From Paracyclopina nana (Eukaryota > Arthropoda > Copepoda > Cyclopoida > Cyclopettidae): DNA of 64,000 nucleotides. Positions 24,317 to 40,573 of this stretch are shown here, in pieces. The stretch is from positions 17,174,001 through 17,238,000 of the forward strand of contig JAGUCH010000001.1 in assembly GCA_019096065.1 (NCBI GenBank), in the 5' to 3' direction. A program made the translations under genes and the position numbers. The notes under the pieces were generated by a model that ran no database searches, was not told the DNA's origin, and worked only from the letters and a program-made list of their open reading frames with translations. The first letter of the stretch is position 1. Every line of letters starts with the position of its first letter.

Positions 24317-24421
24317 CATTGATGTGAAAAATGTAAAATGTTGTCAAAAAATGTACTAGGTCAAAAAAGAAGATGGTAAGCTGGAGCTAAAGAATACCTT
24401 CCAAAACAGATGAGAAATAAA

Positions 24422-25195
24422 AGCTATAAAAGTACGCTATGGAAGTGGCAAAAACACAATTTTTTAACCAGTCTGTAGTGAACTGCGTAGAGCTAATTGG
24501 GGATCAACCCTGAAATAAGGTTGTCTTCAAAATATTGAAGTCTCTGGTTTTCATATCAAGACAAAAGTATATGAGGAGATTTTTCAACCATCACCGAGAA
24601 ACTCGAGAGTAATTTATTAATGGAAGTTTTGACGGTCTCTAAATGTGTGTCAAATGCAGATCTTAAAGCCCAAGTGGTTAGATCTTGGAAAATATCCAAA
24701 ATATCGCTACTTCACCAAAAGTAAAACCTAGTAAAACCTGTCGGACATTCTGAAGGGTAAATAAAGAAGAAAATCTCTGACATTTTGCATTTTTCAGCTT
24801 GATTTTCGATCAAAAGTCAAACCGCGGTAAAAAGCCATGTCAAGTTGAAAAATTATAAATTGGAGTTAGGACAAACCGCTTGGGCTTCTCAGTTCTCTGT
24901 TGGCTTTTTTTGTTTTGTTGCTTTTTTTGGCGCCACAATTCAAGCGCCTGGTCTGTTGTTTTGATTCGGTCGTGCGAGCCAATAAAATTCCGCGTAACAT
25001 CAGAGAAGAGCCAATGAAAAGTCGTCAAATCGTCACGTGACGCGCGAGGCGTCTCAGCTTCTCAGCGAATCAAAACATTCGTTTCAGCGTCAGACCAAGC
25101 TTCGCCTCCATTTTGCCGCAACCGAAATTGGTAGTGAAGCCTCTTGAGAAAAGGCCGTTTTAAGACTTCAAGGAAGGCGTGTGACTCCACAAGAG
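24422..25195 (+). promoter_or_regulatory. upstream region and probable 5' UTR exon of the BTB gene
   Basis: AT-rich DNA to about 24980, then a more GC-rich stretch (CACGTGACGCGCGAGGCGTC) likely to be promoter and 5' UTR. A donor AAGAG|GTAAGTG at 25195/25196 followed by the acceptor CATAATTCACAG (exon from 25253) would define a 57-nt intron in the leader. No TATA box is obvious. Confidence 0.5.
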
Positions 25196-25264
25196 GTAAG
25201 TGTGTGCTGATTGAAAGGCCGAAGCAAGGTTGTCATAGTGCATAATTCACAGCTGTTAATCGCC

Positions 25265-26084
25265 ATGGGTGCGTCCGGCACCGACAACTTTTGCCTTCGG
25301 TGGAACGATTTCGCCGAGAACGTGAGCGGAGCCTTCAAGGATCTGAGGGCGGAGAATGACTTTTTCGACGTGACGTTGGCCTGCTCCGACTCTGGAGCGC
25401 GGACCCTGCAAGCCCACAAAGTGATTTTGTCCGCCTGCTCGAACTTTTTCAAGACCACCTTTCGCCAGCAGAGCATCAAGCACCCCAACCCCTACATCTA
25501 CCTGCGTGGGGTGAGCTACACCGATCTCCTGTCCATCCTGGACTTCATCTACAACGGCGAAGTCAACGTGGCCCAAGAGGACCTCAACTCGTTCCTCGCC
25601 GTCGCCGAGGAGCTGCAAATCAAAGGACTCACCAACCGAGACTCGTCCTCCAATGACAATCACACGACAACCTCAACGACCACCTCGTCGTCGTCCTCAG
25701 CCGTGGCAGCCTCAAACGCTTCATCTTCCGCGAGGAAATCCGGGGCCGGTGGCCGCCCACCCAAGCCTGTCATTGTCGATCATCCCCCACCCGTGAAAAA
25801 GGCCAGGCGGTCCAGCCCTGCGCCCACCCCGGCCTCCGTGGTGGCGGCCGCGGCCGCCGCTCCCAATGTTGTTGACATTGCCAAAGATGTTGTCAACATC
25901 AAAGATGACCCCGAGGCCATCGCCTCGACGTCGTCGGCTGTGAATCCGGACGAGGCGTCCTCGGCTGATTTTGGTGGAGATGACTACGACGAATCCTACG
26001 ATGGCTACTATGAGGATGACGGAGCTGACATTGGCGAAGGCGGAGAAGAAGGCGGAACTGACGGTGGCACTGACGGTACCAAAG
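25265..26084 (+). CDS. common exon of BTB transcription factor (TTK-type BTB, lola/broad-like), 273 aa
   Basis: Start ATG at 25265. The BTB/POZ domain covers about residues 7-122: NFCLRWNDF at its start, FFDVTLACSD, LQAHKVILSACSNFF, YIYLRGVSYTDLL, FIYNGEVNVAQEDLNSFLAV and ELQIKGLT. These are hallmarks of the TTK-type BTB subgroup (lola, broad, fruitless, tramtrack, mod(mdg4)). Residues about 126-273 are low complexity: Ser/Thr-rich, a PPPVKKARR basic patch (possible NLS), an Ala run, and an acidic Gly/Tyr-rich end. The exon stops at donor AAAG|GTAGGC with one base of overhang. All 25 downstream exons supply the two bases needed. BTB domains dimerise and recruit chromatin regulators; the alternative tails would set DNA specificity. 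Orthology to lola specifically is an inference, because several paralogues share this design. Confidence 0.9.
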
Positions 26085-26668
26085 GTAGGCATGCCCTTTT
26101 TATTACTCATAAGCTTTTGTTGGCGCCGCCACGGGTCACTTGTTCTGGATTGAGGCTGCCAAATCTCTTTCTCCTTTTTTTCGACGATTTTTTTTTGGGT
26201 GTTTGGTCATGTAGTATATTGCAGGCATGAAGCTTCAGAGAGAAGCCCTTGCTTCTCTCGGTCGATTGGCTGCTCTATATTGGATCGGTGGCTCTTAGCT
26301 TACATGTTTTGGTTGATCCAAAATAGGGCGGCCACTCGATTTGCTTACCGAAGTAACGAAGAAGGTTTGTATGATCCTCGGTTCAATATGGAGCAGCCTT
26401 TCGCCTTGATCTGTCTTACAAAAGTAACCTTCAATCTTGTTGTGCCTCTTGCAATCCAGAACAGGTCGGCCCTCTTTCCATCACTAATTCAACTATGTGC
26501 TCGTCGGCTAGGCTCTCTTGGTTGGTGACGTTGGCTAGGTTTTGTAGGCTCGGTCGCGTGTCTGGTGTCCGCATCCTGGAGACAAGTGTGGCAGTGTCGT
26601 CCCGTGCTGCCGGACTTGCCATGCAATTGGGTAGACTAAGGCTAATCCAAGGCTGCTTATATTTGCAG
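26085..26668 (+). other. first intron of the BTB gene; one doubtful short tail exon
   Basis: No zinc-finger exon is seen here. A good acceptor TATATTGCAG at 26224 would open a 24-residue in-frame tail (26225-26298, GMKLQREALASLGRL..., stop TAG) in the same phase as the others. It has no known domain, so it may be a decoy or an isoform without a DNA-binding part. Confidence 0.4.
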
Positions 26669-27009
26669 CTTTGGCAAGGTCGCGGTCGTCGCATCATGCT
26701 CTTAAAAAGAGGCGTAACGAGGATCGTTACGCCCACCTGATCAAGCTTCCGGACGGCAAGGTGCGCTGCTCGTTGTGCAACTCGATGTACTCGAGCAACG
26801 TGAGTGCGCGAGCTCACACGGTGCGCGTTCACGAGTTACCCGAGTTCTTCGAATGCTGCTTCTGCAAACGCATCTTCCGCACCAAGCTCAACTTCCGCTC
26901 GCATCTCAACTTGTCTCACGGTGTCAAGGGCTCCAATCTAGTCGCTTCGTACGGCCGTCTCGTGGACGAGTCTGAATTGCAGCAGTCCTCGTCGTCTCAG
27001 ATTGACTGA
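26669..27009 (+). CDS. BTB gene alternative 3' exon T1: two C2H2 fingers (113-aa tail)
   Basis: Acceptor ATATTTGCAG. The first codon completes GCT. A basic stretch (SRSSHHALKKRRNEDR) precedes finger 1 (CSLCNSMY...HTVRVH) and finger 2 (CCFCKRIF...HLNLSH). The tail after finger 2, GVKGSNLVASYGRL, is shared in form (KG-x-x-LV-x-x-YG) with T2-T5, marking one duplication subfamily. It ends with a Ser/Gln-rich stretch. Confidence 0.88.
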
Positions 27010-27057
27010 AAACCGCCTCTTCGTCGTTATCTTAGCTATAAAACACCCCACTTTTAG

Positions 27058-27356
27058 GGCTGACCAAGTTTGACCCCAGTATGGTGGCCGTGGGCGGAGA
27101 TGGGCGGGCTCAGTGTATAGTTTGCGGCTCGATGTACTCGAATCAGGGCGTGGCGAGGATGCACGTGATTCGCATGCACCTGGAGCCAGAGCTGTTCCAG
27201 TGCAACCTCTGCAATGCTGTCATAAGGCATAGGTTGGATTTCGCCAAGCACGTCAATAGGAGGCATGGCATCAAAGGCGCGAAAAACATTGTAACCAATT
27301 ATGCTCGGCCACTGGCAAACAACCCAATGATGACGACTTTGAAAAAAGCCAAGTGA
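27058..27356 (+). CDS. BTB gene alternative 3' exon T2: two C2H2 fingers (99-aa tail)
   Basis: Acceptor CACTTTTAG, 48 nt after the T1 stop. Fingers CIVCGSMY...HVIRMH and CNLCNAVI...HVNRRH are followed by GIKGAKNIVTNYARPL. This is the parent-like copy for the four decayed units that follow. The first AATAAA after its stop is at 27374-27379, which is inside the first decayed copy. Confidence 0.88.
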
Positions 27357-28533
27357 TGCTTAGATCCTGCTTCAATAAAATGCTTGTCATTCTGCTTGAT
27401 GGTCACTTTTTGTGCATAGTTCAAAGCTCGATGTAAATCAGGATGCATGTTATCCGGATGCACCTGGAGCAAGAGTTGCTGCTATACAGCCTCTGCTGAG
27501 CTGTCTTGAAGGAAATAAGTTGGATTTTGCAAAGCACATCAAAAAAAAGGCTGAGCTTCAAAGGTGGTAAAAACATAGCAACCAATTTTGCTCGACCACT
27601 GCTGACAAACCAATGACGATGAAAGCCAAATGAAAGCCATGTAGTCCTTCTATTCTGTCTGCTTCAATAAAAAGCTCGTCATGTTGCTTGATGGTCCCTT
27701 TTTGTGCATAGTTCAAAGCTCAATGTAAATCAGGATGCATGTTATCCAGATGCACCTGGAGCAAGAGTTGCTGGTTACACCCTCTGCTGAGCTGTCATGA
27801 AGGAAATACGTTGAATTTTGCAAAGCACATCAAAAAAAGGCTGAGCTTCAAAGATGGTAAAAACATAGCAACCAATTTTGCTCGACCACTGCTGACAAAC
27901 CAATGACTATGAAAGCCAAATGAAAAAGCCATGTGGTCATTGCGTTCTGTCTGGCTCAATAAAATGCTTGTCAGGCTGCTTGATGGTCACTTTTTGCACA
28001 TAGTTCAAAGCTCGATGTAAATCAGGATGCATGTTATCAAAATGCACCTGGAGCAAGTGTTGCTACTATACAGCCTCTGCTGAGCTGTCAAGAAGGAAAT
28101 AAGTTGGATTTCGCAAAGCACGTCAAAAAAAGGATGAGTTTCAAAGGTGGTAAAAACATAGCAACCAATTTTGCTCGACCACTGCAAACAAACCAAATGA
28201 CGATGAAAGCCAAATGAAAAAGCCATGTAGTCCTTGCGTTCTGTCTGGCTCAATAAAATGCTTGTCATGCTGCTCGATGGTCACTTTTTGTGCTTAGTTT
28301 AAAGCTCGATGTAAATCAGGATGCATGTTATCCGGATGCACCTGGAGCAGGAGCTGTTACATTACAAACTCTGCTAAGCTGTCATGAAGCATAAGTTGGA
28401 TTTCGCAATAAGAGGCTTGGCATCAAAGGCGCTAAAAAGATAGCAACCAATTAAGCTCGGCCACTGGCAAACAACTCGATGATGATGATGATGACGACGT
28501 CGCTGAACAAGGCCAAATGATCCGTACTTTCAG
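27357..28533 (+). pseudogene. four tandem decayed zinc-finger exon copies, ~292-bp period
   Basis: Four degenerate units follow T2, each with TTGATGGTCACTTTTTG, then ATGTAAATCAGGATGCATGT, TGCACCTGGAGCA, TTGGATTT and CAACCAATT, matching T2 and T3 in order. All are broken by stops and small indels. An AATAAA in each unit falls at 27374, 27666, 27958 and 28252, and the homologous one in intact T3 at 28542, so the spacing is 292, 292, 294 and 290 bp. In T3 those six bases are the coding Asn-Lys pair. The units are relics of the same exon array that no longer encode fingers. Confidence 0.85.
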
Positions 28534-28799
28534 ATAAATTCAATAAAACGCTCGTCGTGCTGCCCGACGGCCGCTTTTTGTGCTCCATTTGCAACTCGTC
28601 GTATTTGACCAAGGCGATTTTGCAGCGGCACTGGGAGATCCTCCACGGGCCCAAGGAGTACTACGAGTGCCGCCTCTGCAAGGCCGTCATCAAGTCCAAG
28701 GCCTACTTTAGAAAGCATATCAGCATGAAGCACTTTAAGGGCGGCCACGATCTCGTCAAGAACTATGGCATCCGCCTGCTCTACCACCGATCGACGTGA
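28534..28799 (+). CDS. BTB gene alternative 3' exon T3: two C2H2 fingers (88-aa tail)
   Basis: Acceptor GTACTTTCAG. The tail starts DKFNKTLVVLPDGRF; the Asn-Lys codons here are AATAAA (28542-28547). Fingers CSICNSSY...HWEILH and CRLCKAVI...HISMKH, then FKGGHDLVKNYG. Its second half is very close to T4 (SKAYFRKHIS identical). The stop is 19 nt before the T4 exon, so it has no private 3' UTR. Confidence 0.9.
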
Positions 28800-28818
28800 T
28801 GCCATTTGATCCTTTCAG

Positions 28819-29060
28819 GCCTGTATAGTAGGAGCAGCAGCAAGACGAGGGTGACGTGTCCGCTCTGCGGGCTGCACTACGCGAGCAGAAACACGCTCCG
28901 GTCGCACATGGAGACTTTGCACGGTCCGGAGGAGCTGTACAAGTGCCGGCTGTGCGAGGAGGTGATCAAGTCCAAGGCCTACTTTAGGAAGCACATTTCC
29001 ACTAAGCATTTCAAGGGCGGCTCCGACCTCGTCCACTGTTACGCGATCAAACTGACCTGA
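28819..29060 (+). CDS. BTB gene alternative 3' exon T4: two C2H2 fingers (80-aa tail)
   Basis: Acceptor GATCCTTTCAG. Fingers CPLCGLHY...HMETLH and CRLCEEVI...HISTKH, then FKGGSDLVHCYAIKL. The stop TGA overlaps a CTGAT branch-point-like sequence, and only 15 nt separate it from the T5 exon. Confidence 0.9.
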
Positions 29061-29075
29061 TGAATAACATTGCAG

Positions 29076-29329
29076 AGCATCTCTTTTTCGTGGCTGACGG
29101 GCGGGTCCGGTGTGTGACGTGCAACAAGCTGTTCAAATCGTCCATAACCGCCAAGCAACACGTGATGCTCCAGCACGAGCCGCAAACCGAGTGGTACGAG
29201 TGCTGCTTCTGCAAGCAAGTCGTCCGGGGAAGGCTCTACTTCAGGCAGCACATTGGCAAGCGGCACTTCAAGGGCGGGACCAATGTGGTCGAATCCTACG
29301 GCAAACTCGTGCGAGCTCCCAAACAATAA
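29076..29329 (+). CDS. BTB gene alternative 3' exon T5: two C2H2 fingers (84-aa tail)
   Basis: Acceptor AATAACATTGCAG. Fingers CVTCNKLF...HVMLQH and CCFCKQVV...HIGKRH, then FKGGTNVVESYGKL. The stop TAA (29327-29329) lies inside an AATAAA poly(A) signal (29325-29330), so the stop codon and the polyadenylation hexamer overlap. Confidence 0.9.
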
Positions 29330-29349
29330 AACTCCACTCGTTGTTGTAG

Positions 29350-29600
29350 GAAGTGGCGGCGACAATGATTCCGGAATCGCCTATGAGCCGGCCACCAACG
29401 GATTCAAGTGCCTCGAGTGCTCGAAAGCATTCATGCACGCGAGCACGGCCAGGCGCCACTTTAAGGACTTCCACCTCTACGGACCTCAGAGCATTCGGTG
29501 CGAGTTTTGCGAAAAGGTCTTCAGCCGGCTGCGATACATGAAAGAGCACCTCGCGAACGTCCACTACGGCAACCGCTGCCGGCCTCGGAGGCCCAATTGA
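29350..29600 (+). CDS. BTB gene alternative 3' exon T6: two C2H2 fingers (83-aa tail)
   Basis: Acceptor GTTGTTGTAG, 20 nt after the T5 stop. Fingers CLECSKAF...HFKDFH and CEFCEKVF...HLANVH, with a basic tail NRCRPRRPN. It starts a second subfamily (T6-T10, T12, T13) whose fingers are closer to canonical C2H2 and lack the KGG-LV-YG tail. Confidence 0.9.
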
Positions 29601-29642
29601 AATGGCATCGATGATTAAGCCACCACTGAAATATACTTGCAG

Positions 29643-29851
29643 ATGATCAGCAGCAGGATATTAAGTACGTTAGCGGAGTCGGCTTCAGGTGCGGCGTGTG
29701 CCGCAAGGTGTACATGCACCTGAGCACCGCGAAAAGACATTTAGTGGAGGCCCACACTGAGGCCGGGCAGAAGGCGTATCCCTGCCACTTGTGTGAAAAA
29801 CTATTCACCCGTGATCGCACGCTCAAACGGCACCTGACCAAGTGCCACTAG
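29643..29851 (+). CDS. BTB gene alternative 3' exon T7: two zinc fingers (69-aa tail)
   Basis: Acceptor ATATACTTGCAG. There is no internal ATG near the start, so the exon is visible only through the splice frame. Fingers CGVCRKVY...HLVEAH and CHLCEKLF...HLTKCH; the stop TAG follows at once after the last His. It is the second shortest intact tail. Confidence 0.88.
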
Positions 29852-29876
29852 ACTCACGTGTCTTCTATATCTTCAG

Positions 29877-30136
29877 CTTCAAGCGGCGTCGTCGTCGTTG
29901 GCAAGAGCTGCAGCTTTGCCGAGATCGACGTCAACCTGGCGAGGCTGAACAACGGGAGGATCAAGTGCCTGAGTTGCGGCAAGCTGTTCTCCTCGTTGGG
30001 CACCTCGCGCCGCCATTTCCGAGAGGTCCACCTCAACTTTGGCGGCGAGTGCCAGCGCTGCGGCCTCGCCTTCAAGCGCAAATACAAACTTGAGCGCCAC
30101 TCCGAACAATGTGCTGTTGACGACGGGCCCAAATAA
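29877..30136 (+). CDS. BTB gene alternative 3' exon T8: C2H2 plus C2HC finger (86-aa tail)
   Basis: Acceptor CTATATCTTCAG. Finger 1 is CLSCGKLF...HFREVH. Finger 2 is CQRCGLAF...HSEQC, with Cys as fourth ligand. The stop TAA (30134-30136) is embedded in AATAAA (30132-30137), a second case of stop and poly(A) signal overlap in the array. Confidence 0.9.
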
Positions 30137-30153
30137 AGCGTTTCATGCACTAG

Positions 30154-30401
30154 GTGGCCACCACTTCGTAAAACTGCCCAACGGCCGGGTGAGGTGCTCG
30201 CGGTGCGCCAAGTCCTACGCCCAGTCCGCCTCCGTCATTCGCCACTATAAAGAGATCCACTTGAGCGAGCCCGACTCCCGCTACGTGTGCCGACACTGCG
30301 GCCAGGTCAACAAGAGGGCCCGATACTTCAGGGAGCACCTCAAGAGGGCCCACGGCTACGATGGCAGCATGATGGATGCTGAAGGCATTCCTCATCTCTG
30401 A
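30154..30401 (+). CDS. BTB gene alternative 3' exon T9: two C2H2 fingers (82-aa tail)
   Basis: Acceptor TTTCATGCACTAG, 17 nt after the T8 stop, with almost no polypyrimidine tract. Fingers CSRCAKSY...HYKEIH and CRHCGQVN...HLKRAH. Gly-His-His and KLPNGRVR precede finger 1, echoing the PDGR motif of T1 and T3. Confidence 0.9.
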
Positions 30402-30415
30402 ATTGCATTTTCCAG

Positions 30416-30663
30416 GGGCGAGGGCTGGCGTCGTGATGCTCTTCGATGATGATGACCACGAGGTGCTCTTGCGCAACCACCAGCTTTGGTCGTGCGCGAG
30501 CTGCGGCAAAAGCTTCAGCCAAAAGCCCAGCCTGCGCAGGCACGAGCGGGAGGTGCATCGGAGGGCCGGATTGGCCTACCCCTGTGATAGCTGCGAGGCT
30601 CGTTTCGTCCGGAAAGAGCACTTGACGCGACACCGCTTGCGAGTGCACTCCATGATGCTCTGA
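30416..30663 (+). CDS. BTB gene alternative 3' exon T10: two C2H2 fingers (82-aa tail)
   Basis: Acceptor GCATTTTCCAG, 14 nt after the T9 stop. An acidic run (DDDDHE) precedes CASCGKSF...HEREVH and CDSCEARF...HRLRVH. Only 9 nt lie between its stop codon and the T11 exon, the tightest gap in the array. The stop TGA sits in CTGAT. Confidence 0.9.
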
Positions 30664-30672
30664 TCATTGTAG

Positions 30673-31154
30673 GCCTCCTCCGGATTCGCAACCACTTGTC
30701 CTCCGCTGAGGACGAGTTCACCAACATCATGTTGGAGCGGCACGCGGCGGGCAGGCTGCGGAGGGCGTTCACCCTCGACGAGTACACGGCCATCATTAGC
30801 CGCCTCGAGGCCGTGCGCGCCGGCCTCGAAAAGCCCAACTTCAACGACATCAAAATGCTCAAGATGTACTCGATTGCCACGTACCCGAACGGCGAAAAGT
30901 TCCTCGTGAAGCTGAGCAAGTCGGAGGCGGCCTCCGGCGGCGCCGGCCTCTCCGACGAGGACCTCCTCAGCGCCGAGCGGTTCATCCCCATCGAGAAGCT
31001 GTTCCCCTTCATCATCACCGCGCATCTGGAGACGAAGCATGGGAAGCGCGACACGCTGATGAAGCGCCTGCGCGAAATGAAGGTGGCGAACGCGGGCCGC
31101 GACACCGTCCTCCTGTTCCTCAGCCTCTGCGAGTCCTGTGCCAATGACCAATAA
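30673..31154 (+). CDS. BTB gene alternative 3' exon T11: integrase-type HHCC zinc-binding domain, no C2H2 finger (160-aa tail)
   Basis: Acceptor GATCATTGTAG, same phase as all the others. The tail has no C2H2 motif. An N-terminal helical part contains FTLDEYTAIISRLEAVRAG and IKMLKMYSIATYPNGEKFLV. Next comes an acidic/Gly linker, then ERFIPIEKLFPFI, AHLETKHGKRDTLMKRL and LLFLSLCESC. The last part gives H-x4-H-x29-C-x2-C, the zinc ligand pattern of integrase N-terminal (H2C2) domains. The LEVxH..H-GxRD...YLSLCExC style is that of KRBA2-like/transposon integrases as I recall them. No catalytic DDE core follows; the exon ends at TAA. Inference: a transposon integrase N-terminal domain co-opted as an alternative BTB tail. 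The composition (about 60% GC) matches its neighbours, so the capture is old. Confidence 0.8.
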
Positions 31155-31191
31155 TAACAACGTGTGTAAAGATAGTAGTATGCTGTTGCAG

Positions 31192-31424
31192 ATTTCGTGC
31201 GGGCCGTGGGCGTGAAGGGGCAGTGCTTGAGTTGTAGTAAGATATTCGCCACGCCCGGCTCCGCCCGGCGGCACGTGAAGCAGGTGCACCTGTCCGGATC
31301 CTCGCTGACCTCGCGGGTCTGCCTGCTTTGCGGCAAAACGTTCAAGCACGTCGAGACGCTGAAGGACCACCTTCGGAGGAGGCACAACGTGTACCAGAAC
31401 CAATACATGGACATGTATACCTAG
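31192..31424 (+). CDS. BTB gene alternative 3' exon T12: two C2H2 fingers (77-aa tail)
   Basis: Acceptor TGCTGTTGCAG. Fingers CLSCSKIF...HVKQVH and CLLCGKTF...HLRRRH, with a Tyr/Met-rich end (YQNQYMDMYT). T13 ends with a similar HLRRKH and YKDMYKS, so T12 and T13 are sister copies. Confidence 0.9.
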
Positions 31425-31447
31425 TATGTGATGCGATCTTGTTGCAG

Positions 31448-31695
31448 ATGAGTGCGAGGGCGGGATCGAAAAGCTCGAGGGCGGCGGTGGCCAGTGCAAC
31501 GTGTGCGGCCGCGTGTTCTCCGGACTGCGCAATGCCAAGAGGCACTTCTCCACCGTGCACCTGCAGGAGAACTCGCCCTGCCACTGCCCCGTCTGCAAAA
31601 AGCTGTTCATTCGCAAAGAGCTCATGAAGGATCACCTGCGGCGCAAGCACAAGATGTACAAGGACATGTACAAGTCGCTCTTCAACCACCGCTGA
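31448..31695 (+). CDS. BTB gene alternative 3' exon T13: two C2H2 fingers (82-aa tail)
   Basis: Acceptor TCTTGTTGCAG, 23 nt after the T12 stop. A Glu/Gly-rich lead precedes CNVCGRVF...HFSTVH and CPVCKKLF...HLRRKH. The stop TGA lies in CTGAT, 13 nt before the T14 exon. Confidence 0.9.
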
Positions 31696-31708
31696 TTTCT
31701 TTTCGTAG

Positions 31709-32148
31709 GCACGCGAAATCGTCGAAGCAGGCTGCTCTCTCCGGACTCCGCCGCGCTCATGCACAAGATCGACGGAGCGTGGACATGCCTCGCCTGCCAG
31801 CAGCAGTTCCGAGACAAGACCGACCTCCGGAGGCACGTCGAGTCCAAGCACCTGCCGAGGACCGTGGCTCCGGAGGACTTGGCCGTGCACATGGACAAGA
31901 TCGACGGGGCCTGGACGTGCCTCTCCTGCCAGCAGCAGTTCAGAGACAAGACCGACCTCCGGAGGCATGTCGAGTCCAAGCACCTGCCCACGACGGTGCG
32001 CTACAGGTGCAACCTATGCCCCTGGAGCGCCAAGACCACCTACGCGTTTCGAAAGCACCAGCTTATGCATGAGAAAATGTCCATGCGGTCAGAGCCGATT
32101 TCCGTGCCCATAAATCAGCAGCAGCTTCAAAATGACGATCTATACTGA
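31709..32148 (+). CDS. BTB gene alternative 3' exon T14: three C2H2 fingers with an internal 132-bp duplication (146-aa tail)
   Basis: Acceptor TTCTTTTCGTAG. Fingers 1 and 2 are almost identical (KIDGAWTCL, C-x2-C, QQQFRDKTDLRRHVESKHLP), 44 residues apart. Finger 3 is CNLCPWSA...HQLMH. The tail is Gln/Asp-rich (QQQLQNDDLY). It is the only exon with three fingers. Confidence 0.9.
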
Positions 32149-32259
32149 ACAATTGATTCTTTTACCCTCCTTGTGCGTGTTGGATAATAATGATAGGAAA
32201 ATATAGTTTTCTATATGCCAATGAAATGGAAAAAAAGAGGCTGACCCGGCCTTTCTTAG

Positions 32260-32522
32260 CTTCTTGTAGGCCGGTCTCGTATGACAACCGCCATGAGCTG
32301 TACCAGTACATCGACAAGCTGGCCTCGGGCGAAGTCTCCTGCGGCCTCTGCGGAAAGGTCTCCAAAGACAGGAGCAACATGCGCAGGCACCTGGTCCTCG
32401 TCCACTCCCAACCCACCAATGAACGCTGCTTAGCCTGCAACAAGGTGTTCACCTTCAGGCACTACTATCTCAGGCATTTGCGAGCTCCTGGCGAGTGTGT
32501 CACTCCCATGGATCACTTCTAA
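32260..32522 (+). CDS. BTB gene alternative 3' exon T15: C2H2 plus C2HC-like finger (87-aa tail)
   Basis: The acceptor CTTTCTTAG at 32259 gives the phase used by all other tails; the nearby TTGTAG at 32269 does not. Finger 1 CGLCGKVS...HLVLVH. Finger 2 CLACNKVF...HLRAPGEC, with Cys as last ligand and longer spacing. A Tyr-rich lead (HELYQYIDKL) precedes it. Confidence 0.85.
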
Positions 32523-32584
32523 CCAGCAAGGAAAAATCCAGTATTGTAATGACAGCATCACAAGCGTTTCAACCATGATTGCAG

Positions 32585-32832
32585 GAGGATCGGGGTCGAA
32601 ATTCTATCGCGAAATGTTCGATCGCGTGAGTGGCAAGCGAGTGTTCCAGTGCGAGCTTTGCCACATGTCCACCAACTTCGTCAACTCGATCCAACGGCAC
32701 TTGGTGCTCAAGCACACCCAGCCCACTGGGAAGCACGTGTGCAAGTTCTGCGGCAAGGTGTTCAACAACAAGTTCTACCTGATCAATCACACCTCCTCCA
32801 CCTGCTCGTGGTCAAAGCAACATGCTAAATGA
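32585..32832 (+). CDS. BTB gene alternative 3' exon T16: C2H2 plus C2HC finger (82-aa tail)
   Basis: Acceptor CATGATTGCAG. Fingers CELCHMST...HLVLKH and CKFCGKVF...HTSSTC. HLVL-x-H and the QPT linker are shared with T15, so the two are sisters. Confidence 0.9.
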
Positions 32833-32894
32833 TTTTTTTTCTCCGGATGCTCAATGGCTGCCTGAAATATTGAGAAGTATTGATGCTCTTGCAG

Positions 32895-33076
32895 ATGATC
32901 TCGCACTGGCTGAGGACTTTGTCACCAAGGCTGTAGACTCTGTTGGAGCAACCTCGTATCAGTGCCACCTCTGCAGCTATTCCGGAGCCCATAAAGGCAC
33001 TGCCAAAAGGCACGTTCGCAATGTTCACTTGATGAAGCTCAAGGCTAGACCTGCTGCTGCTTTCCTGCCCAAATGA
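32895..33076 (+). CDS. BTB gene alternative 3' exon T17: single C2H2 finger (60-aa tail)
   Basis: Acceptor ATGCTCTTGCAG. Only one finger (CHLCSYSG...HVRNVH), preceded by an acidic helix (DDLALAEDFVTKAVD) and followed by an Ala-rich end. It is the shortest intact tail and has lost, or never had, the second finger. AATAAA lies at 33096-33101, just after the stop. Confidence 0.88.
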
Positions 33077-33118
33077 TCGTCGTGATGACTTGGCCAATAA
33101 AATCTGATATTGTTGTAG

Positions 33119-33402
33119 GCAAGTCCAGCGCTGTGATTGCGATTGGACGCAAAAAATTCGCGCAAGTCTGGTATCAGTATGTGAAACTGGATCGAGGATG
33201 GACTTATCAGCAAAATAAGGAGCATTTTTGTAAACTCTGCCCGTACAAGTCGAAGAAGAGGCTGAACGTTGTGAGACATAATGCAATCACTCACTTGATG
33301 AATGGTGGCTTCTCAAACCAAAAGTGCGCCCAATGCAGCATCACCTTTTTCGCATCCGAAGATCTGAACAATCACTTGTGCATGCACACTTCTTACAACT
33401 GA
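33119..33402 (+). CDS. BTB gene alternative 3' exon T18: two zinc fingers (94-aa tail)
   Basis: Acceptor TATTGTTGTAG. Fingers CKLCPYKS...HNAITH and CAQCSITF...HLCMH. T18 and T19 are close paralogues: KLDRGWTYQQNKEHFCKLCP here, KLDRGWAYTQNKEHFCKLCP there. Confidence 0.9.
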
Positions 33403-33610
33403 AAACAATAAGAATTTCAAAAAAAAATTATACCTTTTGTTCAAAAGTTTTTTTTTCACGACTCCGGTAGCTTTAGATGGCGCCACTGACGAATAGGGCA
33501 GAGGTGCCAGAATTGGATTTCATTGATATTACTCCATTTGGCATTTCTTCAATATCATAGGAGACAAGTTGTAAAGTAGGTTGTCAGTAAATTATGGTGT
33601 ATTGTTGTAG

Positions 33611-33894
33611 GAAAATCCAATGTTAATCCAAGTCAGCCAAAACTTTGGAAGGTTTGGTCGAAGGAGATGAAGCTGGATCGGGGATGGGCTTACACTCAAA
33701 ATAAGGAGCATTTTTGCAAACTTTGCCCGTACAAGTCAAAAAAGCGGCTGAACGTTGTGAGACATAATGCGCTCACTCACTTGTCACATGGTGACGTGAC
33801 AGGCGAAAAGTGCGGCCATTGCACCATCATCTTTTTCTCTCGCGAAGACCTGGACAATCACACCTGCACCTACAAATACTACAACCGAAATTGA
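33611..33894 (+). CDS. BTB gene alternative 3' exon T19: two zinc fingers (94-aa tail)
   Basis: Acceptor TATTGTTGTAG. Sister of T18 and equal in length (284 nt). The first finger is near-identical. The second is CGHCTIIF...HTCTY, where the normal last His is replaced and the nearest Cys lies one residue after the first His, so finger 2 may not fold normally. Confidence 0.88.
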
Positions 33895-33905
33895 TGTTGT
33901 TGCAG

Positions 33906-33976
33906 GTGGTGTCACTGTCACTACTCTCGAGGAAAAAATACAAATCCACTTTTCCGCCTTTATGCAATCCGCTTGA
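33906..33976 (+). pseudogene. relic zinc-finger exon (acceptor kept, fingers lost)
   Basis: A good acceptor TGTTGTTGCAG, 11 nt after the T19 stop, opens a 24-residue tail starting GGVTVTT, then stop TGA. The start resembles T20-T22 (GGVKV..., GVVKV...), but no Cys/His ligands follow. It could still be used as a finger-less tail. Confidence 0.6.
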
Positions 33977-34418
33977 CCGCGATCAGCTTTTCCACAATTT
34001 TTAAAGCACTGATATTATGATCAGAAAAGTGCTTGCTTTTTTCCCATATAAAACTTTGATAAAGCTTATAATATTTCTTGAGAGAAACTTGCAATTTTTT
34101 TTGGGCTTTAAAAATGAAAAGAGTACAAAAATAGAGTCTCCTCATGTGTAATTTTCTCTGAAGCAGACATTTTAAAAGTTGACTAAAATAAACTCTGAGC
34201 AAAAATAATGCCAATGCAATGTTTTATTTACGATTTTATTAGTAGGAGCAGAGCCTCTTTTTATTCAGATTTTAGTTGGTAAAAGGTAATCAGAAGTGAT
34301 CAGAAAATGAATATGATTTCTAAGGCAGGTCAAATAGAAACCATTGTTGACTTGAATGTTATTTGATAACTGTGTGAAAATCGTGAAAGAATCCTCATAC
34401 GGATTGATGTTGTTGCAG
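33977..34418 (+). other. intronic spacer, no exon seen
   Basis: AT-rich DNA between the relic exon and T20 without a zinc-finger motif in any frame that I can recognise. Confidence 0.6.
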
Positions 34419-34660
34419 GTGTTGTCAAGGTGGTGGACGACTGTATCATCAAAGTAGCTGGCAGCAACAAGTTTGCTTGCAAATTGTGCTCGTATCAAGG
34501 AGGTCGAAGGACCTCAGTTCGCAGACATTTGATGACCAGACACAGTGCTGAAGATGGACTAGGTTGTGATTTTTGTGGCAGGTCTTTTAAGAACCGATAT
34601 GCATTCAACACTCACTTTAGGCGTACCAAGTGTAAAGGGCCCAAAATTGCCCCCATTTGA
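34419..34660 (+). CDS. BTB gene alternative 3' exon T20: C2H2 plus C2HC finger (80-aa tail)
   Basis: Acceptor TGTTGTTGCAG. Fingers CKLCSYQG...HLMTRH and CDFCGRSF...HFRRTKC. First of a recent trio (T20-T22) sharing SAEDGL-x-CDFCGRSFKN. AATAAA at 34673-34678. Confidence 0.9.
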
Positions 34661-34708
34661 CTTGATGGATAAAATAAAATATGATGATCCGGATTGATGT
34701 TGTTGCAG

Positions 34709-34944
34709 GTGCAGTCAAGAGGATTGACGATTGTATCACCAGAGTAGCTGGCAGCAAAAAGTTTGCTTGTAAACTGTGCCCATACCAGGGAGCTGATAAG
34801 TTCATGGTTAAGAGACATTTGATGATGCGACACAGTGCTGAGGACGGATTAGAATGCGATTTTTGTGGCAGGTCGTTTAAAAATCAGTATGGATTCAACA
34901 GGCACTTTAAGCGAACCAAGTGTAAAGGCACTCAAGTTGCCTAG
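34709..34944 (+). CDS. BTB gene alternative 3' exon T21: C2H2 plus C2HC finger (78-aa tail)
   Basis: Acceptor TGTTGTTGCAG. Fingers CKLCPYQG...HLMMRH and CDFCGRSF...HFKRTKC. Its second half and about 70 bp of 3' flank are nearly identical to T22. A premature TAG (GTQVA, then stop) shortens it by two residues relative to T22 (GTQVASI). Confidence 0.9.
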
Positions 34945-35086
34945 ATTTAAGTGGGGAAAAAATCCGGATTGCTATTGGAAAACTATCATGGCATCATTTT
35001 TGCATAAAAAAAGCTCCAAGTGTAAAGACAGAAGACAAGTTGGACTTGAGTAAAAAAAATCCAGATCCGGACTCATGTTATGGCAG

Positions 35087-35285
35087 GTGGTGGAGCAAAG
35101 AACCTGGCACTGCCTGCAAATTGCATCCCTATCAAGCAGCTAAACAAATCTTGGTCAAGAGACTTTGAGACTTTAGATGACCAAGCACAGCACTGAAGAT
35201 GACATAGAGTGTGATTTTTGCGGCCGGTCATATACGAACCGAAATGGACTCACTTTAAATATACCAAGTGTCAAGAGCTGTCCTC
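35087..35285 (+). pseudogene. decayed zinc-finger exon of the T20-T22 group
   Basis: Acceptor-like TGTTATGGCAG, then a recognisable but broken copy of the T20-T22 unit: CAGCACTGAAGATGACATAG and GAGTGTGATTTTTGCGGCCG match SAED-x-x-ECDFCGR. The region of finger 1 has deletions and frame breaks (for example an early TGA after AGAGACTT). Confidence 0.8.
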
Positions 35286-35341
35286 ATGTAACTTGAGTGA
35301 AATATAATGTACGAATTATGATGATCGATATGTTATTGCAG

Positions 35342-35583
35342 GTGGTGTCAAGGTGCTGGACGATTGTATCACCAGAGTACCTGGCAGCAATAAGCATGCC
35401 TGCAAATTGTGCCCCTATCAAGCAGCTGATAGGTTCATGGTTAAGAGACATTTGATGATGCGACACAGCGCTGAGGACGGATTAGAATGCGATTTTTGTG
35501 GCAGGTCGTTTAAAAATCGATATGGATTCAACAGGCACTTTAAGCGAACCAAGTGTAAAGGCACTCAAGTTGCCTCGATTTAA
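35342..35583 (+). CDS. BTB gene alternative 3' exon T22: C2H2 plus C2HC finger (80-aa tail)
   Basis: Acceptor GATATGTTATTGCAG. Fingers CKLCPYQA...HLMMRH and CDFCGRSF...HFKRTKC. Nearly identical to T21 from about residue 35 onward, including the region after the stop, which shows a very recent duplication or gene conversion. Confidence 0.9.
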
Positions 35584-35641
35584 GTGGGGAAAAATCCGGA
35601 TTGCTATTGGAAAACTATCATGGCATCATTTTTGCTTGCAG

Positions 35642-35976
35642 ATATCAGGATCTCAGCAGCAAAAAAGATGTCGAAAAAGTCTTCCTCTTCTTCTTCGGTT
35701 AATATCACTGGTGACTATTCCTCTTCAGAGTCGTACATCATTGAGGATCATGACATGAATGGCTCGAAGCAGTACAGGTGTTCAGCCTGCGGATTCGAAT
35801 CGCACTGGAGGTCCTCCATGAGCAGGCACATGACCACTGTGCATGCCCCGAATTGCGACCTGAAATGCGACGTCTGCCAAGTCACCTACAAAAATATGCT
35901 CGCGTTTCAAGAGCATCTGCGTCGCAAGCGTTGCAACTTGACCACTTTTGATCCCCTCAAGCCCATCATGCATTGA
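35642..35976 (+). CDS. BTB gene alternative 3' exon T23: C2H2 plus C2HC finger (111-aa tail)
   Basis: Acceptor TTTTTGCTTGCAG. A Lys then Ser-rich lead (KKMSKKSSSSSS) precedes CSACGFES...HMTTVH and CDVCQVTY...HLRRKRC. AATAAA (35977-35982) follows the stop codon directly with no spacer. Confidence 0.9.
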
Positions 35977-36033
35977 AATAAATTCCACGGCTTTCTAATT
36001 CCTTCTCACCAATGTTGATCTGTATTCTTGCAG

Positions 36034-36281
36034 GAGGTGCTGCGAGGCGCGTAGATTTCATTAACGGAGTGACTACCTTAAATGAAATGATTGGCAGTGA
36101 AGATGGGAAAACTTTCACGTGTCTGGCTTGCTTTTTCTCCTCCAATCGGAGAGACACAATCAAGCGCCACCTAAAGCTGGTCCATGTTGAGCACCAACCA
36201 GTCACGTGTCCGTCTTGCGACAAGTCGTTCAAAAACGAGTACAACCTCAAAACTCACCTAAAACGAGCCCACAAGAAATAA
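36034..36281 (+). CDS. BTB gene alternative 3' exon T24: two C2H2 fingers (82-aa tail)
   Basis: Acceptor TGTATTCTTGCAG. Fingers CLACFFSS...HLKLVH and CPSCDKSF...HLKRAH. Three TAA codons in a row end the frame, and AATAAA (36283-36288) overlaps them. Confidence 0.9.
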
Positions 36282-36410
36282 TAATAAAAATCCTTCTTAC
36301 CGTACATGATCTGTCAAAATTATCATTTCCCTTCAGTTTCTATCATTTTATGATTTCTTCCTATTTTTTTTTTGGTTTTCTTTTTCATTTTTTTCCTTTG
36401 ATTTTTCCAG

Positions 36411-36658
36411 GTCCTGGACCTTATGATTATGCTTTACGCTTTGTTCGCACGAAAGAGGGCGAGTTGACGTATCAGTGTGGCTTGTGCGGATATTTGCCCA
36501 ATTCCACCAACAAATCCATCGGATATGCCAAGAACCGCGTCCAGATGCACATCAAAAACGTCCATTCCGGACCGGAGCATGTGGAGTGTCCGGGATGCAA
36601 GAAGCAGTTCAAAAACAAAGAAAGCTTACGCGTGCATAAAATCAAATATTGCAAATAA
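36411..36658 (+). CDS. BTB gene alternative 3' exon T25 (last): expanded C2H2 plus C2HC finger (82-aa tail)
   Basis: Acceptor TTGATTTTTCCAG with a long pyrimidine tract, the strongest acceptor of the set. Finger 1 (CGLCGYLP...HIKNVH) has 20 residues between Cys2 and His1 instead of 12, including NSTNKSIGYAKN. Finger 2 is CPGCKKQF...HKIKYC. AATAAA at 36737-36742 ends the locus. Confidence 0.88.
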
Positions 36659-36742
36659 TGACAGGTCTTCCTCGACACCAATTGTTATACTACTTGAGAA
36701 AAAAATAGTATTAAAACATATCTACGGATAGCGGCAAATAAA

Positions 36743-37353
36743 AATCATGTCACAACAATAATAAGTAGTTTCCTTATATTTTTTGCGTCTTTTCCTGAAT
36801 CTCCTTTATTGCAAAAATAAGGCATGAGATTTTCGCAAGCAATTTAAAATTTGGATTTTCAATTCAATTTGAGTTGCAAAACTTTCCAGATTTCATCTAG
36901 ACGAGTTGCTTTCATGGCCGAAAGGTCAAAAGCAAGAATTGTGTATAAATAGTGTTTATTTGATTTACCGTAAGTTCTTCTAACTTGAGTAAGTTATGTT
37001 TTTAATAGGTTTTCAGGATTTTTGCGCCAAAAGTTTATATTTTATATTTAGAGCTGAAAATTTCGAGCGTCGCTCAAATTAGGAGAAAGTACGGTAAATT
37101 TCATAAACATGCAAAAAAGAAGGTAGTTTTTTACCGTACACGTGAGCTTTTTGTTCTACCCGACTATTTGAGCTTGCCGAGATGTCTAACGAAAAAGCGT
37201 AGGAAGTTTGCCTGAGTCATGCCCGGAAAAATCCGGCACCTGTTTTAATTTCCAATTCCTCACTTAAAAAATTATTTTTCACTCCACTCATTCAACAAAT
37301 TTTTGCTATATTTAATCAGCGGAAAAATCTGGCGAGAAAGTGGAAATCCACGG
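36743..37353. other. intergenic, no gene seen
   Basis: AT-rich spacer between the BTB locus and the next GPCR gene. Confidence 0.6.
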
Positions 37354-37363
37354 TATATAAAGG
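37354..37363 (+). promoter_or_regulatory. TATA box of the atypical GPCR gene
   Basis: TATATAAAGG about 160 nt before the ATG at 37516. A TSS near 37385-37390 would give a 5' UTR of about 130 nt. Confidence 0.6.
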
Positions 37364-37515
37364 AGTTTTCTTGCATTCCAGGGAGATTGGCGAGTGCCGT
37401 ACAGTATACACATTGTATATAGTAGAAGTCATGCAGCTCTCGCAGGTAGCAGCAAAACATAGCAAAGCTTATAGCAGTTGGCCAGGAGAGAAGTGGGCCA
37501 GTTGCCAAGATCATC

Positions 37516-39530
37516 ATGGCGAACTTCAACAACGATTCTTTCCTGGGCCAAATGGATCTGGATGCAGATGATGATCCAGACCTGCTTGAAGAATCCGACC
37601 TTTTGGCCTTTGAGCCCGTTGAAATCATCGTGGCCAGGGTCCTCTTTGCCCTCCTCGTGTCAGTGTCCTTGGTGATGAATTTGCTCCTGGCCATGGCTGT
37701 TGCCCGACGATGGAGCACCGTTCACCTGATCTACATTTTGACTGCGGCCATGGCTCTGCCAGATCTCGTCTTCTACTCCAAATTAGTGGCAGAGCTCGTG
37801 GATAGCTACGGCCAAAAAGTCCCCTCGTGGGCCTCATCAGGTAACAAAATATTAAAATGAACCGAGCGAAACTTGACAAGTCCGAGCGTCACCGAGGGAT
37901 GTAATTTGACGGCCTGGTTTGATATGTTGTATAATTTAAGCGGCATAAGCCAGGGGAGGGACAAACTTTTTCGTTAGATGGCGCTTTCTGAGCAAGTATT
38001 TTTGAAGAAACTGTCGTTCCCAAAACTCGTTATGTAATTGCAAGCGGCAATTTGATTGGCTGATCGGCGTAGCCATGCTAGAAAATGGTTTCGACAGTGA
38101 AAAGCTTGAAAATTGCTGAAATTGTTATAAGTTTTATGCCTTGAAAGGGTACCGTTTTGCTTGTAGGTTATGCCTTATTTGTGAAGTTTTTGGCACAAGC
38201 GCTCCAAAAGCCAAACAATAGCCAATTTTTGATGGTCTTTGAAGCGCAGCCATGTCAAATGTAATTGCTCAAGTTGAATATCTAGATGGCGCAGCGAATC
38301 GAGCTAATACTTTGCATAATTAGCTTATGTACATAAATAGATATGCTTTTTTCAGATTGGGCTTGCGGAATGTGGCTGTTTTCGCATCACTTTCCTCCAT
38401 TGCTCTACTCCTGCCTCCTTTTGGCCATTGTGTACCATGCATTTATCACACTTTTCCTCGACTACTCTGGTGGCTATGAGGACTCTGCCAAAAGGATGTT
38501 CCCTGTGATCCTGGTCTCGCTAATCACCATATGTACGCTAATGGCTGCACCTTCCGGGTTTTTTGGCCAAAGTGCAACGCTAACCAAGTTGGGCAACCAC
38601 AAATTGTTCCATTTCAAACGACATTGTGGCCTGGATGTGCCAAGCCTCACTGCTTTCCAGCCAGAAATGAGCCCAGACATGAGAATTGAGGCGGAAGCCT
38701 CTTACAGGCTCGTTTACGAGCTTGTCTTACCGTATCTTCTCCCACTTCTGCTACTAGGTATAAGCCAAACGCGTAGAGTCACTAGATTCACAGCGCCATC
38801 TAGCCCAGCAACTTGAGCAAGTACATTTGTCATGGCAGCGCTTTTTATACCATCAAAAATTGGAAATTGTTTGGCTGTTGGAGCACTTGTGCCAAAAACT
38901 TGATAAATTTACAGTAATTTACAGACAAAATGTTACCCTTTAAAGCCATTAAACCGTTTAACTTTAATGCTAATTTTCAAGCTTGTCATTGCCGAAACTC
39001 AATTTTTCCAGCCTGGCTTTAATAATCAGCCAATCAAATTGCAGTTTGTAATCATATGACGAGTTTTGGGAGCGATGGTTTGTCCAAAAATACTTGCTCA
39101 AAAAGCGCCATCTGGCGAAAAAGTTTGTCCCTCCGCTGCCTTATGACCTAAATTGAAAACCATGTTTATAATCAAGTAAATTGTTTTTTTAGGATTTCCT
39201 TACATTACACTTTTGGTGGGTCTGATGAAGAGTGTTCCAGCTGCCAGCCACAGTGAGCACTCGACGAAAATCACAGTGGTGGTGACCCTTTGGCTGGTGA
39301 CCTCTTACCTCATGCTCCATGTGCCCACCATTTTGCGAAATGTGTTCAGCATCTTCAACGTGTGGGATCGACTGGTGATCATGTTCAATGCACAGGAGGA
39401 CGAACGCGTCCCCAGATTCCAGACCTATATCCACATTTTGGCCTATGTCTGCACCTGCATTTGGGCCATTGTGCGAGCCTCGCTCTGCTTCAAGTACAAC
39501 CACAAGCTCAGAAAAGCCCTGGGACCATGA
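37516..39530 (+). CDS. atypical seven-transmembrane receptor (class A-like, orphan), 354 aa
   Basis: Three exons: 37516-37840, 38356-38757 and 39193-39530, with continuous frame. Seven hydrophobic helices are visible: IIVARVLFALLVSVSLVMNL (TM1), HLIYILTAAMALPDLVFYS (TM2), CGMWLFSHHFPPLLYSCLLL (TM3, with the conserved Cys), FPVILVSLITICTLMAAPSG (TM4), LPYLLPLLLLGFPYITLLVG (TM5), TVVVTLWLVTSYLMLHVPTI (TM6) and YIHILAYVCTCIWAIVRASL (TM7). The usual class A signatures are absent: no GN in TM1, no LAxxD in TM2, no DRY after TM3 (TLFLDYS instead) and no NPxxY in TM7. The N-terminus is acidic (DLDADDDPDLLEE). The ligand is unknown. I do not recognise a named orthologue. It could be an arthropod orphan GPCR or a non-signalling relative. 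Confidence 0.75.
37945..38328 (-). mobile_element. repeat family A (MITE-like), copy 5
   Basis: Reverse-oriented copy filling most of intron 1 of the atypical GPCR gene (ATAAGCCAGGGGAGGGAC to AATTAGCTTAT). It is diverged but keeps GATTGGCTGATCGGC and AGATGGCGC motifs. Confidence 0.75.
38760..39144 (+). mobile_element. repeat family A (MITE-like), copy 6
   Basis: Forward copy starting two bases after the exon-2 boundary, so that the splice donor reads GT then ATAAGCC of the element. It makes up about 385 of the 435 bp of intron 2 of the GPCR gene. Confidence 0.8.
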
Positions 39531-40003: not shown

Positions 40004-40573
40004 TTACCCATAGACAGGAGTGGGGTGGTATGGGGCGGGAGCGGGGTGATAGGGGGCGGGTTTGGGGTGATAGGGGGCGGGCTTGGCGTGGTAGGGAGCT
40101 GGGTGGTATGGGGCTGGCTCTGGGTGGTATGGGGCGGGCTCAGGGTGGTAAGGGGCGGGTTTGGCGTGATAGGGGGCGGGTTTGGGGTGGTAGGGCTCGT
40201 AATGGGGCTCTCCCTCGTATTTGACATCGGCGACGTATCCGTTCTCGTGGTCGGCGTGGTAGGTCACGATTTGGGTTCTGCCATCGGGCAGAGCCACCCT
40301 GTATTCGCCGGTGACCACCCCGTAGTCGTCCTGGGTCTCCTGCTTGTTGAAGTAAGCTCCGGAGTACTCGTCACTCACGCCATACTCGTATGCGAAAGGC
40401 CTGGGTGGGATTTTGTACTCGTCGTGGTGGTAGGCGGGAGCGGGGGCGTGGTAGGGAGCGGCGGGGGCGTGGTACGGGGCGGGGGCGTGGTAGGGGGCGG
40501 GGTGATGGTAGGGGTTGTCGGCGTTGGCGAGCACCACGCTGGCAGCGAGCAACACAGCAAGTTTGGAATACAT
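40004..40573 (-). CDS. R&R cuticle protein (chitin_bind_4) with Pro-Tyr-His repeats, 189 aa
   Basis: Single exon; ATG at 40573-40571, stop TAA. Signal peptide MYSKLAVLLAASVVLANA. The R&R domain is central: PFAYEYGVSDEYSGAYFNKQ, then DDYGVVTGEYRVALPDGRTQ, VTYHADHENGYVADVKYEGE. This resembles the crustacean pro-resilin-like type. Both flanks are AP-x-PYH repeats: HHPAPYHAPAPYHAP before, and about ten AKPAPYHPEPAPYHP-type repeats after. Role: structural extracellular cuticle protein binding chitin. An earlier in-frame Met would lie upstream of the TATA box and is rejected. Confidence 0.93.
   Translation of the reverse strand: MYSKLAVLLAASVVLANADNPYHHPAPYHAPAPYHAPAAPYHAPAPAYHHDEYKIPPRPFAYEYGVSDEYSGAYFNKQETQDDYGVVTGEYRVALPDGRTQIVTYHADHENGYVADVKYEGEPHYEPYHPKPAPYHAKPAPYHPEPAPYHPEPAPYHPAPYHAKPAPYHPKPAPYHPAPAPYHPTPVYG

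Follow-up and report, generated by a model that had tools for sequence, protein, structure and literature searches.

A BTB exon followed by 25 phase-matched candidate last exons within 10 kb

Described BTB hubs and the kinship of the locus

In Drosophila, both mod(mdg4) and lola are reported to be trans-spliced, and mod(mdg4) has exons on the minus strand. The lola gene of Drosophila is described as having one BTB part and alternative last exons numbering about 20, with C2H2 fingers present in 17 of these (PMC10551640, PMC11426971); the last exons are said to have separate, non-overlapping 3′ UTRs, and how a single donor selects one of them is presented as an open question (PMC10551640). The mod(mdg4) locus of D. 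plexippus is reported to comprise 24 acceptor genes across 550 kb (PMC4667647). A U1-binding sequence is said to sit in the last common introns of both mod(mdg4) and lola (PMC10645366), and a structured terminator is described in that of mod(mdg4) (PMC11727487).

The window analysed here is a stretch of 64,000 nucleotides containing a locus which resembles both systems in having a BTB hub and many alternative last exons. As in lola, these are mostly of the C2H2 type (24/25), and as in mod(mdg4) the last common intron is structured. Unlike lola, non-overlapping 3′ UTRs are unlikely given the gaps of 9–62 nt between most exons. Unlike mod(mdg4), the tails are C2H2, with no FLYWCH match listed at the locus, there are no exons on the opposite strand (where a regex search of the window for finger exons gave chance-like hits only), and the array is far denser than that of D. 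plexippus. In those parts of the open-access literature that were available, we found no report of an array of this kind from any copepod or other crustacean.

In a tree of BTB domains, the window sequence falls into one clade with the BTBs of four loci of the same genome, C9, C4, C3 and C8 (support 97/91). This tree is built on 120 columns, its deep forks are open, and its lola and mod(mdg4) BTB sequences are provisional. With the provisional lola sequence and these 120 columns, a grouping of the window clade with lola was rejected (p-AU 0.005), and the grouping with the provisional mod(mdg4) sequence was absent from the tree and not rejected (p-AU 0.175). The first-pass annotation had likened the locus to lola and mod(mdg4), which holds for the design; on BTB sequence, a grouping with the provisional lola is rejected.

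The sister loci differ in their endings. C9 carries FLYWCH endings (31 of the 36 FLYWCH matches listed in the genome) and has an intron motif and fold in common with the window, while C4 has C2H2 endings like the window, but neither the motif nor the fold. C3 consists of a BTB, a short intron and a few FLYWCH exons, and in C8 the BTB and FLYWCH lie in one open frame. The donors of C9, C4 and C3 are in phase 1 after AAAG, as in the window. Arrays were rejected at three further BTB loci, each inspected over 8 kb: there are two small look-alike one-finger segments and one chance-like segment at C1:14.92M, a single two-finger segment at C1:13.43M and one chance-like segment at C2:6.09M.

The common exon and its array

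The coding part of the common exon (25265..26084, plus strand; 820 nt) encodes a BTB domain (Pfam PF00651, E 6.4e-26), a low-complexity linker and an acidic stretch. It ends one base into a codon at a phase-1 donor (AAAG/GTAGGC), leaving the single overhanging base that had been claimed for it. A PDB match of the domain is to the BTB of CG6765 (E 2.4e-10), described as a TTK-type protein (PMC11426971); together with an FCLRWN-like start, this is only consistent with a TTK-type BTB. A 57-nt intron is predicted in the 5′ UTR (25196..25252, plus strand), with donor caagag/gtaagtg chosen by donor score and acceptor cacag/ctg by eye.

Within the 10 kb 3′ of the BTB exon lie 25 exons, all on the plus strand. 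The array opens with E01 (26669..27009) and E02 (27058..27356; AATAAA at 27374), which are followed by tandem decayed copies related to E02 (27420..28520, plus strand; self-matches of 82–85% at steps of ~290 nt, frames broken by eye). It then runs through E03 (28534..28799), E04 (28819..29060), E05 (29076..29329; stop overlapped by the AATAAA at 29325), E06 (29350..29600), E07 (29643..29851), E08 (29877..30136; stop overlapped by the AATAAA at 30132), E09 (30154..30401) and E10 (30416..30663) to E11 (30673..31154), and on through E12 (31192..31424), E13 (31448..31695), the three-fingered E14 (31709..32148), E15 (32260..32522), E16 (32585..32832) and the one-fingered E17 (32895..33076; AATAAA at 33096). 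Duplicates are frequent in the remainder: E19 (33611..33894) is a near-duplicate of E18 (33119..33402), E21 (34709..34944) a duplicate of E20 (34419..34660; AATAAA at 34673), and E22 (35342..35583) a duplicate of E21, with a decayed copy of the E20–E22 type at 35081..35310 (plus strand; self-matches, frame broken by eye). The last three exons are E23 (35642..35976; AATAAA at 35977), E24 (36034..36281; AATAAA at 36283) and E25 (36411..36658; ATTAAA at 36710 and AATAAA at 36737). Duplicate exons show dN/dS values of 0.25–0.38, and the array would grow by tandem duplication and lose copies by decay.

All were first taken for finger exons, which is right for 24 of the 25, each having C2H2-like fingers, and wrong for E11, which has no C2H2 finger and instead the spacing H-x4-H-x29-C-x2-C. 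Pfam gave nothing for the E11 tail of the window up to an E value of 10, and its structure model has a pLDDT of 49. Aligned by hhalign with three near-identical retroelement pieces of the same spacing it gave P 0.07; the likeness to the integrase HHCC zinc-binding domain is one of spacing only. Searches for relatives of the E11 and E25 tails, in which shared 5-residue words were needed, returned 5 proteins (79–82% identity) and 11 proteins (76–83% identity), respectively, and none outside the group, so that these searches did not connect either tail with insect lola endings.

Each exon opens at an acceptor of matching phase, measures 2 modulo 3 in length and runs to its own stop, and the predicted isoforms are 333–433 aa long, all as the first-pass annotation had reported. 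Choosing a frame already builds in part of the phase match, and length modulo 3 follows from phase; we therefore scored AGs without frame information, using a simple consensus score of our own to rank, for each exon, all AGs in a stretch preceding its first regex finger. The top-scoring AG had the required phase for 21/25 exons (binomial P 2.6e-7 against 1/3), coinciding with the listed acceptor for 20 of them. It was out of phase for E12, E15, E19 and E21, where the listed site came second; E15 is in frame from 32260, and the stronger-looking AG before 32270 does not fit. For E25 the listed acceptor lies outside the scanned stretch and another AG, in phase, ranked first.

The exons are tightly packed. 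Stop-to-acceptor gaps are 9–62 nt in 18/24 cases and below 30 nt in 9/24, so that, coding sequence aside, most exons have no room for a separate promoter and the 3′ UTRs of neighbouring exons probably overlap. A single AATAAA would serve several exons. Seven of the 13 AATAAA sites fall between −5 and +40 relative to a stop (P 0.0001 under uniform placement), a clustering which is only marginal once coding places are excluded (P 0.04). The density had been called unusual; it is high, and not unique, as C4 has ~17 plausible C2H2 segments in <6 kb.

The last common intron

The last common intron (26085..26668, plus strand; single copy in the genome) folds better than all of its shuffled versions (z −3.88, 0/100). 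Its strongly folded core (26220..26410, plus strand; z −6.83, 0/200 shuffles) has an arm, 26262–26287, that can pair with either 26315–26339 or 26379–26403. The corresponding intron of C9 has the lowest z of the 73 stretches scored. Nearer the acceptor of E01 lies the motif CCGCATC-N-GAGACAAGTGT (26569..26589, plus strand), which has two occurrences in 92 Mb, this one and another in the corresponding intron of the C9 FLYWCH array; its reversed control has none. The C4 array intron has neither fold nor motif, and no Rfam family reaches the gathering threshold within 24000–37500. A strong donor-like U1 match is present inside the C9 intron; U1 pairing of the shared motif does not stand out, the match of the window motif being middling (rank 64/583).

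Joining of the endings

Joined forms are found among relatives. Of 120 relatives listed, in a source that does not state whether its joined sequences are RNA, 103 pass out of the common region with no intron read-through, with the junction at the same residue, and this residue is GNN-codable (G, D, E, A or V) in 103/103. The tails of 100/103 match a window exon, in keeping with the claim that one BTB exon feeds 25 alternative last exons; E16–E20 and E22 are without a reciprocal tail among the relatives, E21 being the exception in this run. Two groups of near-identical common regions carry 33 and 20 different tails among the relatives listed. Every relative's tail has at most 2 regex fingers, and each message would take one of the many endings, so "combinatorial", the word first used for the locus, overstates the design.

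We lean towards a reading in which the locus is one gene, whose shared BTB exon is cis-spliced to one of 25 competing last exons with shared 3′ ends. A single exon would code for the shared N-terminal part (BTB and linker), and the spliceosome would join its phase-1 donor to one of the competing acceptors, each opening a stop-bearing last exon, mainly in cis along one pre-mRNA. Exons between two AATAAA sites would end at the next downstream site, their 3′ UTRs running through later exons, and the folded intron and its rare motif may help to choose the ending. The products would be 25 transcription-factor-like proteins with a common interaction surface and differing, mostly zinc-finger, tails, predicted to bind DNA and to multimerise. 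Splicing of the array exons to one another is unlikely, because none of the 565 GTs in the array reaches the score of the common donor on a simple donor score (the best is 0.5 lower). The single strand of all 25 exons, the short gaps, the AATAAA sites near stops and the dN/dS of the duplicates speak for this reading too; the marginal P of the AATAAA clustering at noncoding places and the exons that lack a reciprocal tail speak against it.

The folded intron and its motif count against plain cis joining, because they recall elements reported for Drosophila trans-splicing. It is quite possible, if short of an even chance, that the same proteins are made in trans, the BTB transcript ending or pausing in the structured intron and its donor being joined to separate precursors from the array, with the AATAAA-bounded exon groups as acceptor transcripts; trans-splicing of this kind is what has been reported for the two Drosophila genes. 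The strength of the fold in the window and C9, the restriction of the motif to these two introns, the U1 match within the C9 intron and the intron elements described for the Drosophila genes all favour this; yet most exons lack space for a promoter, fold and motif are both absent from the C4 array intron, the window motif matches U1 only middlingly and minus-strand exons like those of mod(mdg4) are absent from the window. That the array is instead a row of small zinc-finger genes or pseudogenes, each separate from a neighbouring BTB gene and matching in phase by coincidence, is very improbable: tandem clusters are common for C2H2 genes and decayed copies do exist in the array, but in relatives the BTB region and the tails are joined, where separate genes had been named as the finding that would speak against a shared hub, the frame-blind acceptor test argues against coincidence and most gaps are too short.

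Beyond the preferred cis-spliced gene, we tentatively suggest, as a possible but rather doubtful wider picture, a BTB family of the one-of-many-endings kind that is this lineage's own and apart from lola, in which C2H2 and FLYWCH arrays have been exchanged under one type of BTB. Its two largest arrays would keep an intronic control element (20-nt motif and strong RNA fold) by which the donor is tied to the array, probably through trans-splicing, having evolved separately from the Drosophila loci or being anciently shared with them; unlike in lola, neighbouring mRNAs would have 3′ ends in common. An array of 31 FLYWCH matches beside a BTB exon would matter if this genome is, as we suspect, that of a crustacean. 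The sister locus, which has another type of tail but shares the 20-nt intron motif, points to a candidate control element, and the window locus would offer a compact, 10-kb natural case for the choice that a single donor makes from about 20 last exons.

The common exon and its endings

The coding part of the common exon (25265-26084, + strand; 273 aa plus one base) encodes a BTB domain (PF00651, E 6.4e-26), then a low-complexity linker and an acidic stretch, and ends in DGTK/G at the donor AAAG/GTAGGC. A putative 57-nt intron in the 5' UTR (25196-25252), placed by eye and donor score, precedes it. Downstream, a 584-nt intron separates the exon from 25 alternative last exons (E01-E25) on the same strand, which occupy 26669-36658 and hold 6833 coding nucleotides in 9990. 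As the first-pass annotation had proposed, all 25 have an acceptor completing a GNN codon, a length of 2 modulo 3 and their own stop, with predicted isoforms of 333-433 aa. Length modulo 3 is not independent evidence, because it is set by the phase. When AGs were scored without frame information and the best then compared with the required phase, the top AG was in phase for 21/25 exons (P 2.6e-7) and was the listed acceptor for 20. For E12, E15, E19 and E21 the top AG is out of phase and the listed acceptor ranks second; the listed acceptor of E25 lies beyond the scanned stretch, its top AG being another, in-phase one.

The same annotation called these finger exons, which holds for the 24 with C2H2-like fingers by regular expression but not for E11 (30673-31154), where that pattern finds none. 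A Pfam scan took in nine of the 25 protein endings, or tails. Among the eight finger tails scanned, E01, E14, E15 and E23 reach the cut-off for a C2H2-type family and E17, E18, E19 and E25 give sub-cut-off matches only; the ninth, E11, gave zero matches. Within E14 (31743-32002) one finger unit is duplicated (88%), which gives three fingers, whereas the tails of the listed relatives never exceed two by regular expression.

The E11 tail is about 80% identical to those of the BTB-joined relatives P0114 and P0098, part of it stands behind a BTB region in P0123, and it has one match in the genome. It carries no C2H2 finger and ranks among the best conserved tails (79% to P0114). Its spacing, H-x4-H-x29-C-x2-C, follows the HHCC pattern of an integrase zinc-binding domain and is that of integrases in this genome's retroelements; profile and fold comparisons gave no support for integrase identity, and a domesticated integrase finger is no more than a lead, suggested by sequence spacing.

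By eye, the neighbouring genes resemble an SLC4-type anion exchanger (19760-23010, +), a seven-helix receptor (37450-39530, +) and a chitin-binding cuticle protein (40004-40804, -).

Relatives joined at the same place

Of 7993 proteins scored against the common region, 4209 reached E <= 0.001, and the joint analysis rests on 120 of these, as listed. Seventeen run on with GRH, as does the unspliced window; 103 do not. The joint residue in all 103 is G (60), D (24), E (8), A (7) or V (4), the set codable by GNN. The natural reading is that these relatives are cDNA, because their open frames cross the intron place uninterrupted, the sequence source itself being silent on RNA. Tails of 100/103 match some window exon at E <= 1e-3, the exceptions at that threshold being P0003, P0057 and P0113. 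In P0057 the BTB region leads, again through G, into a Tyr-Gly-Pro-rich, cuticle-like tail; it may be an assembly chimaera or an unusual ending. When common regions were clustered at 97% similarity, the largest cluster (52 rows, perhaps from more than one species) carried 33 different tails and the second (20 rows) carried 20.

Among the relatives listed, a reciprocal best tail exists for 19/25 window exons (33-84% identity) but for none of E16, E17, E18, E19, E20 and E22. The weak matches need not imply orthology, since C2H2 tails look alike. Reciprocal tails exist for all of E01-E15, for 3/9 of E16-E24 and for E25; from their scarcity in E16-E24, turnover seems to be faster in the downstream part. 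Decayed tandem copies occupy 27420-28520, with another at 35081-35310, and the young duplicates E18/E19 and E20/E21/E22 have dN/dS of 0.25-0.38.

Sister loci and the BTB tree

The genome searched (92 Mb, 10 contigs) contains at least 62 places similar to the common region. On contig C9, 6113581-6147328 holds 31 of the 36 FLYWCH matches listed for the genome. These 31 share the strand of the BTB exon that immediately precedes them and form an array like that of mod(mdg4) within this genome; the locus (G000:C9:6113581-6148587; entries L013, L048) has at least 31 same-strand matches in 34 kb. In the piece of C4 read, a BTB exon is followed by 19 C2H2 rows by regular expression, about 17 plausible by eye, within less than 6 kb and with some near-identical copies (G000:C4:1008427-1015000; L012, L049). 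The top AG is in phase in 9/19 rows there against 16/17 in the C9 piece, where two segments are double-counted; with so many best acceptors out of phase, the C4 array may be partly decayed. Two further loci combine BTB with FLYWCH, in one open frame at G000:C8:4587733 (L017) and with three matches nearby at G000:C3:1573094 (L011). The donors of the window, C4, C9 and C3 are all phase 1 after AAAG.

A tree was built from two sets of BTBs: 22 from this genome, picked among the listed places after dropping partial and redundant ones, and eight from Drosophila in provisional sequence. The window, C4, C9, C3 and C8 form one clade (97/91), in a tree of 120 columns with 16/27 inner branches open and a clade named after the tree was seen. 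Placing the provisional lola sequence inside it was rejected (p-AU 0.005), as was placing lola and mod(mdg4) together (p-AU 0.004); the grouping with the provisional mod(mdg4) sequence added is not rejected (p-AU 0.175).

3' ends, the last common intron and the route of joining

Gaps from stop to next acceptor range from 9 to 1177 nt (upper median 48), with 18/24 at <=62 nt and 9/24 at <30 nt. Many exons must have their branch point and pyrimidine tract inside or beside the coding end of the exon before, and a 3' UTR exceeding its gap enters the next exon. Seven of the 13 plus-strand AATAAA in the array fall within -5 to +40 of a stop (P 0.0001 under uniform placement; P 0.04 when only noncoding places were drawn); those at 29325 and 30132 overlap the stops of E05 and E08. 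Another four stand after decayed units or at the opening of E03, and other poly(A)-signal variants stand beside some stops. Judged by the next downstream AATAAA, the exons within each of the groups E01-E02, E03-E05, E06-E08, E09-E17, E18-E19 and E21-E23 would use one signal in common. Lola is described as possessing 20 last exons with non-overlapping 3' UTRs (PMC10551640); shared 3' ends here, if real, would differ.

The last common intron (26085-26668) folds better than its shuffles (z -3.88; 0/100 as good), above all in its core, 26220-26410 (z -6.83; 0/200), where one arm has two alternative pairing partners. Among 73 stretches the C9 intron ranks lowest (-5.1), followed by the 500 nt from 26101 (-5.0), the 40501 stretch (-4.4) and the whole window intron (-4.0); 3/71 controls fall below -3.5, the 26101 stretch being one. 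The C4 intron has no excess over shuffles (0.45) and a 300-nt C3 piece from the donor little (-1.87). Compared with each other, the window and C9 introns share at best a 22-nt match (E 5.5e-4). A motif derived post hoc from comparing them, CCGCATC-N(1-6)-GAGACAAGTGT, occurs at two places in the genome, 26569-26589 and C9:6147415-6147434 (-), against about 0.02 expected by our own arithmetic and 0 for the reversed pattern; GAGACAAGTGT by itself has 81. Two papers report a U1-binding sequence in the last common introns of Drosophila mod(mdg4) and lola (PMC10645366) and a structured terminator in that of mod(mdg4) (PMC11727487). As a U1 match the shared motif is middling (rank 64/583 in the window, 27/469 in C9). 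The C9 intron contains a strong internal U1 match, besides its strong fold and the shared motif.

At the level of sequence, a hub exon with phase-matched endings is established, one ending per joint in the relatives. We lean towards the hub being joined to its endings mainly in cis; the main rival, trans-splicing, is plausible though less probable. The likeness to lola and mod(mdg4) that had been suggested stands in design and probably not as identity with lola: the locus is of their kind, and a real new variant of it.
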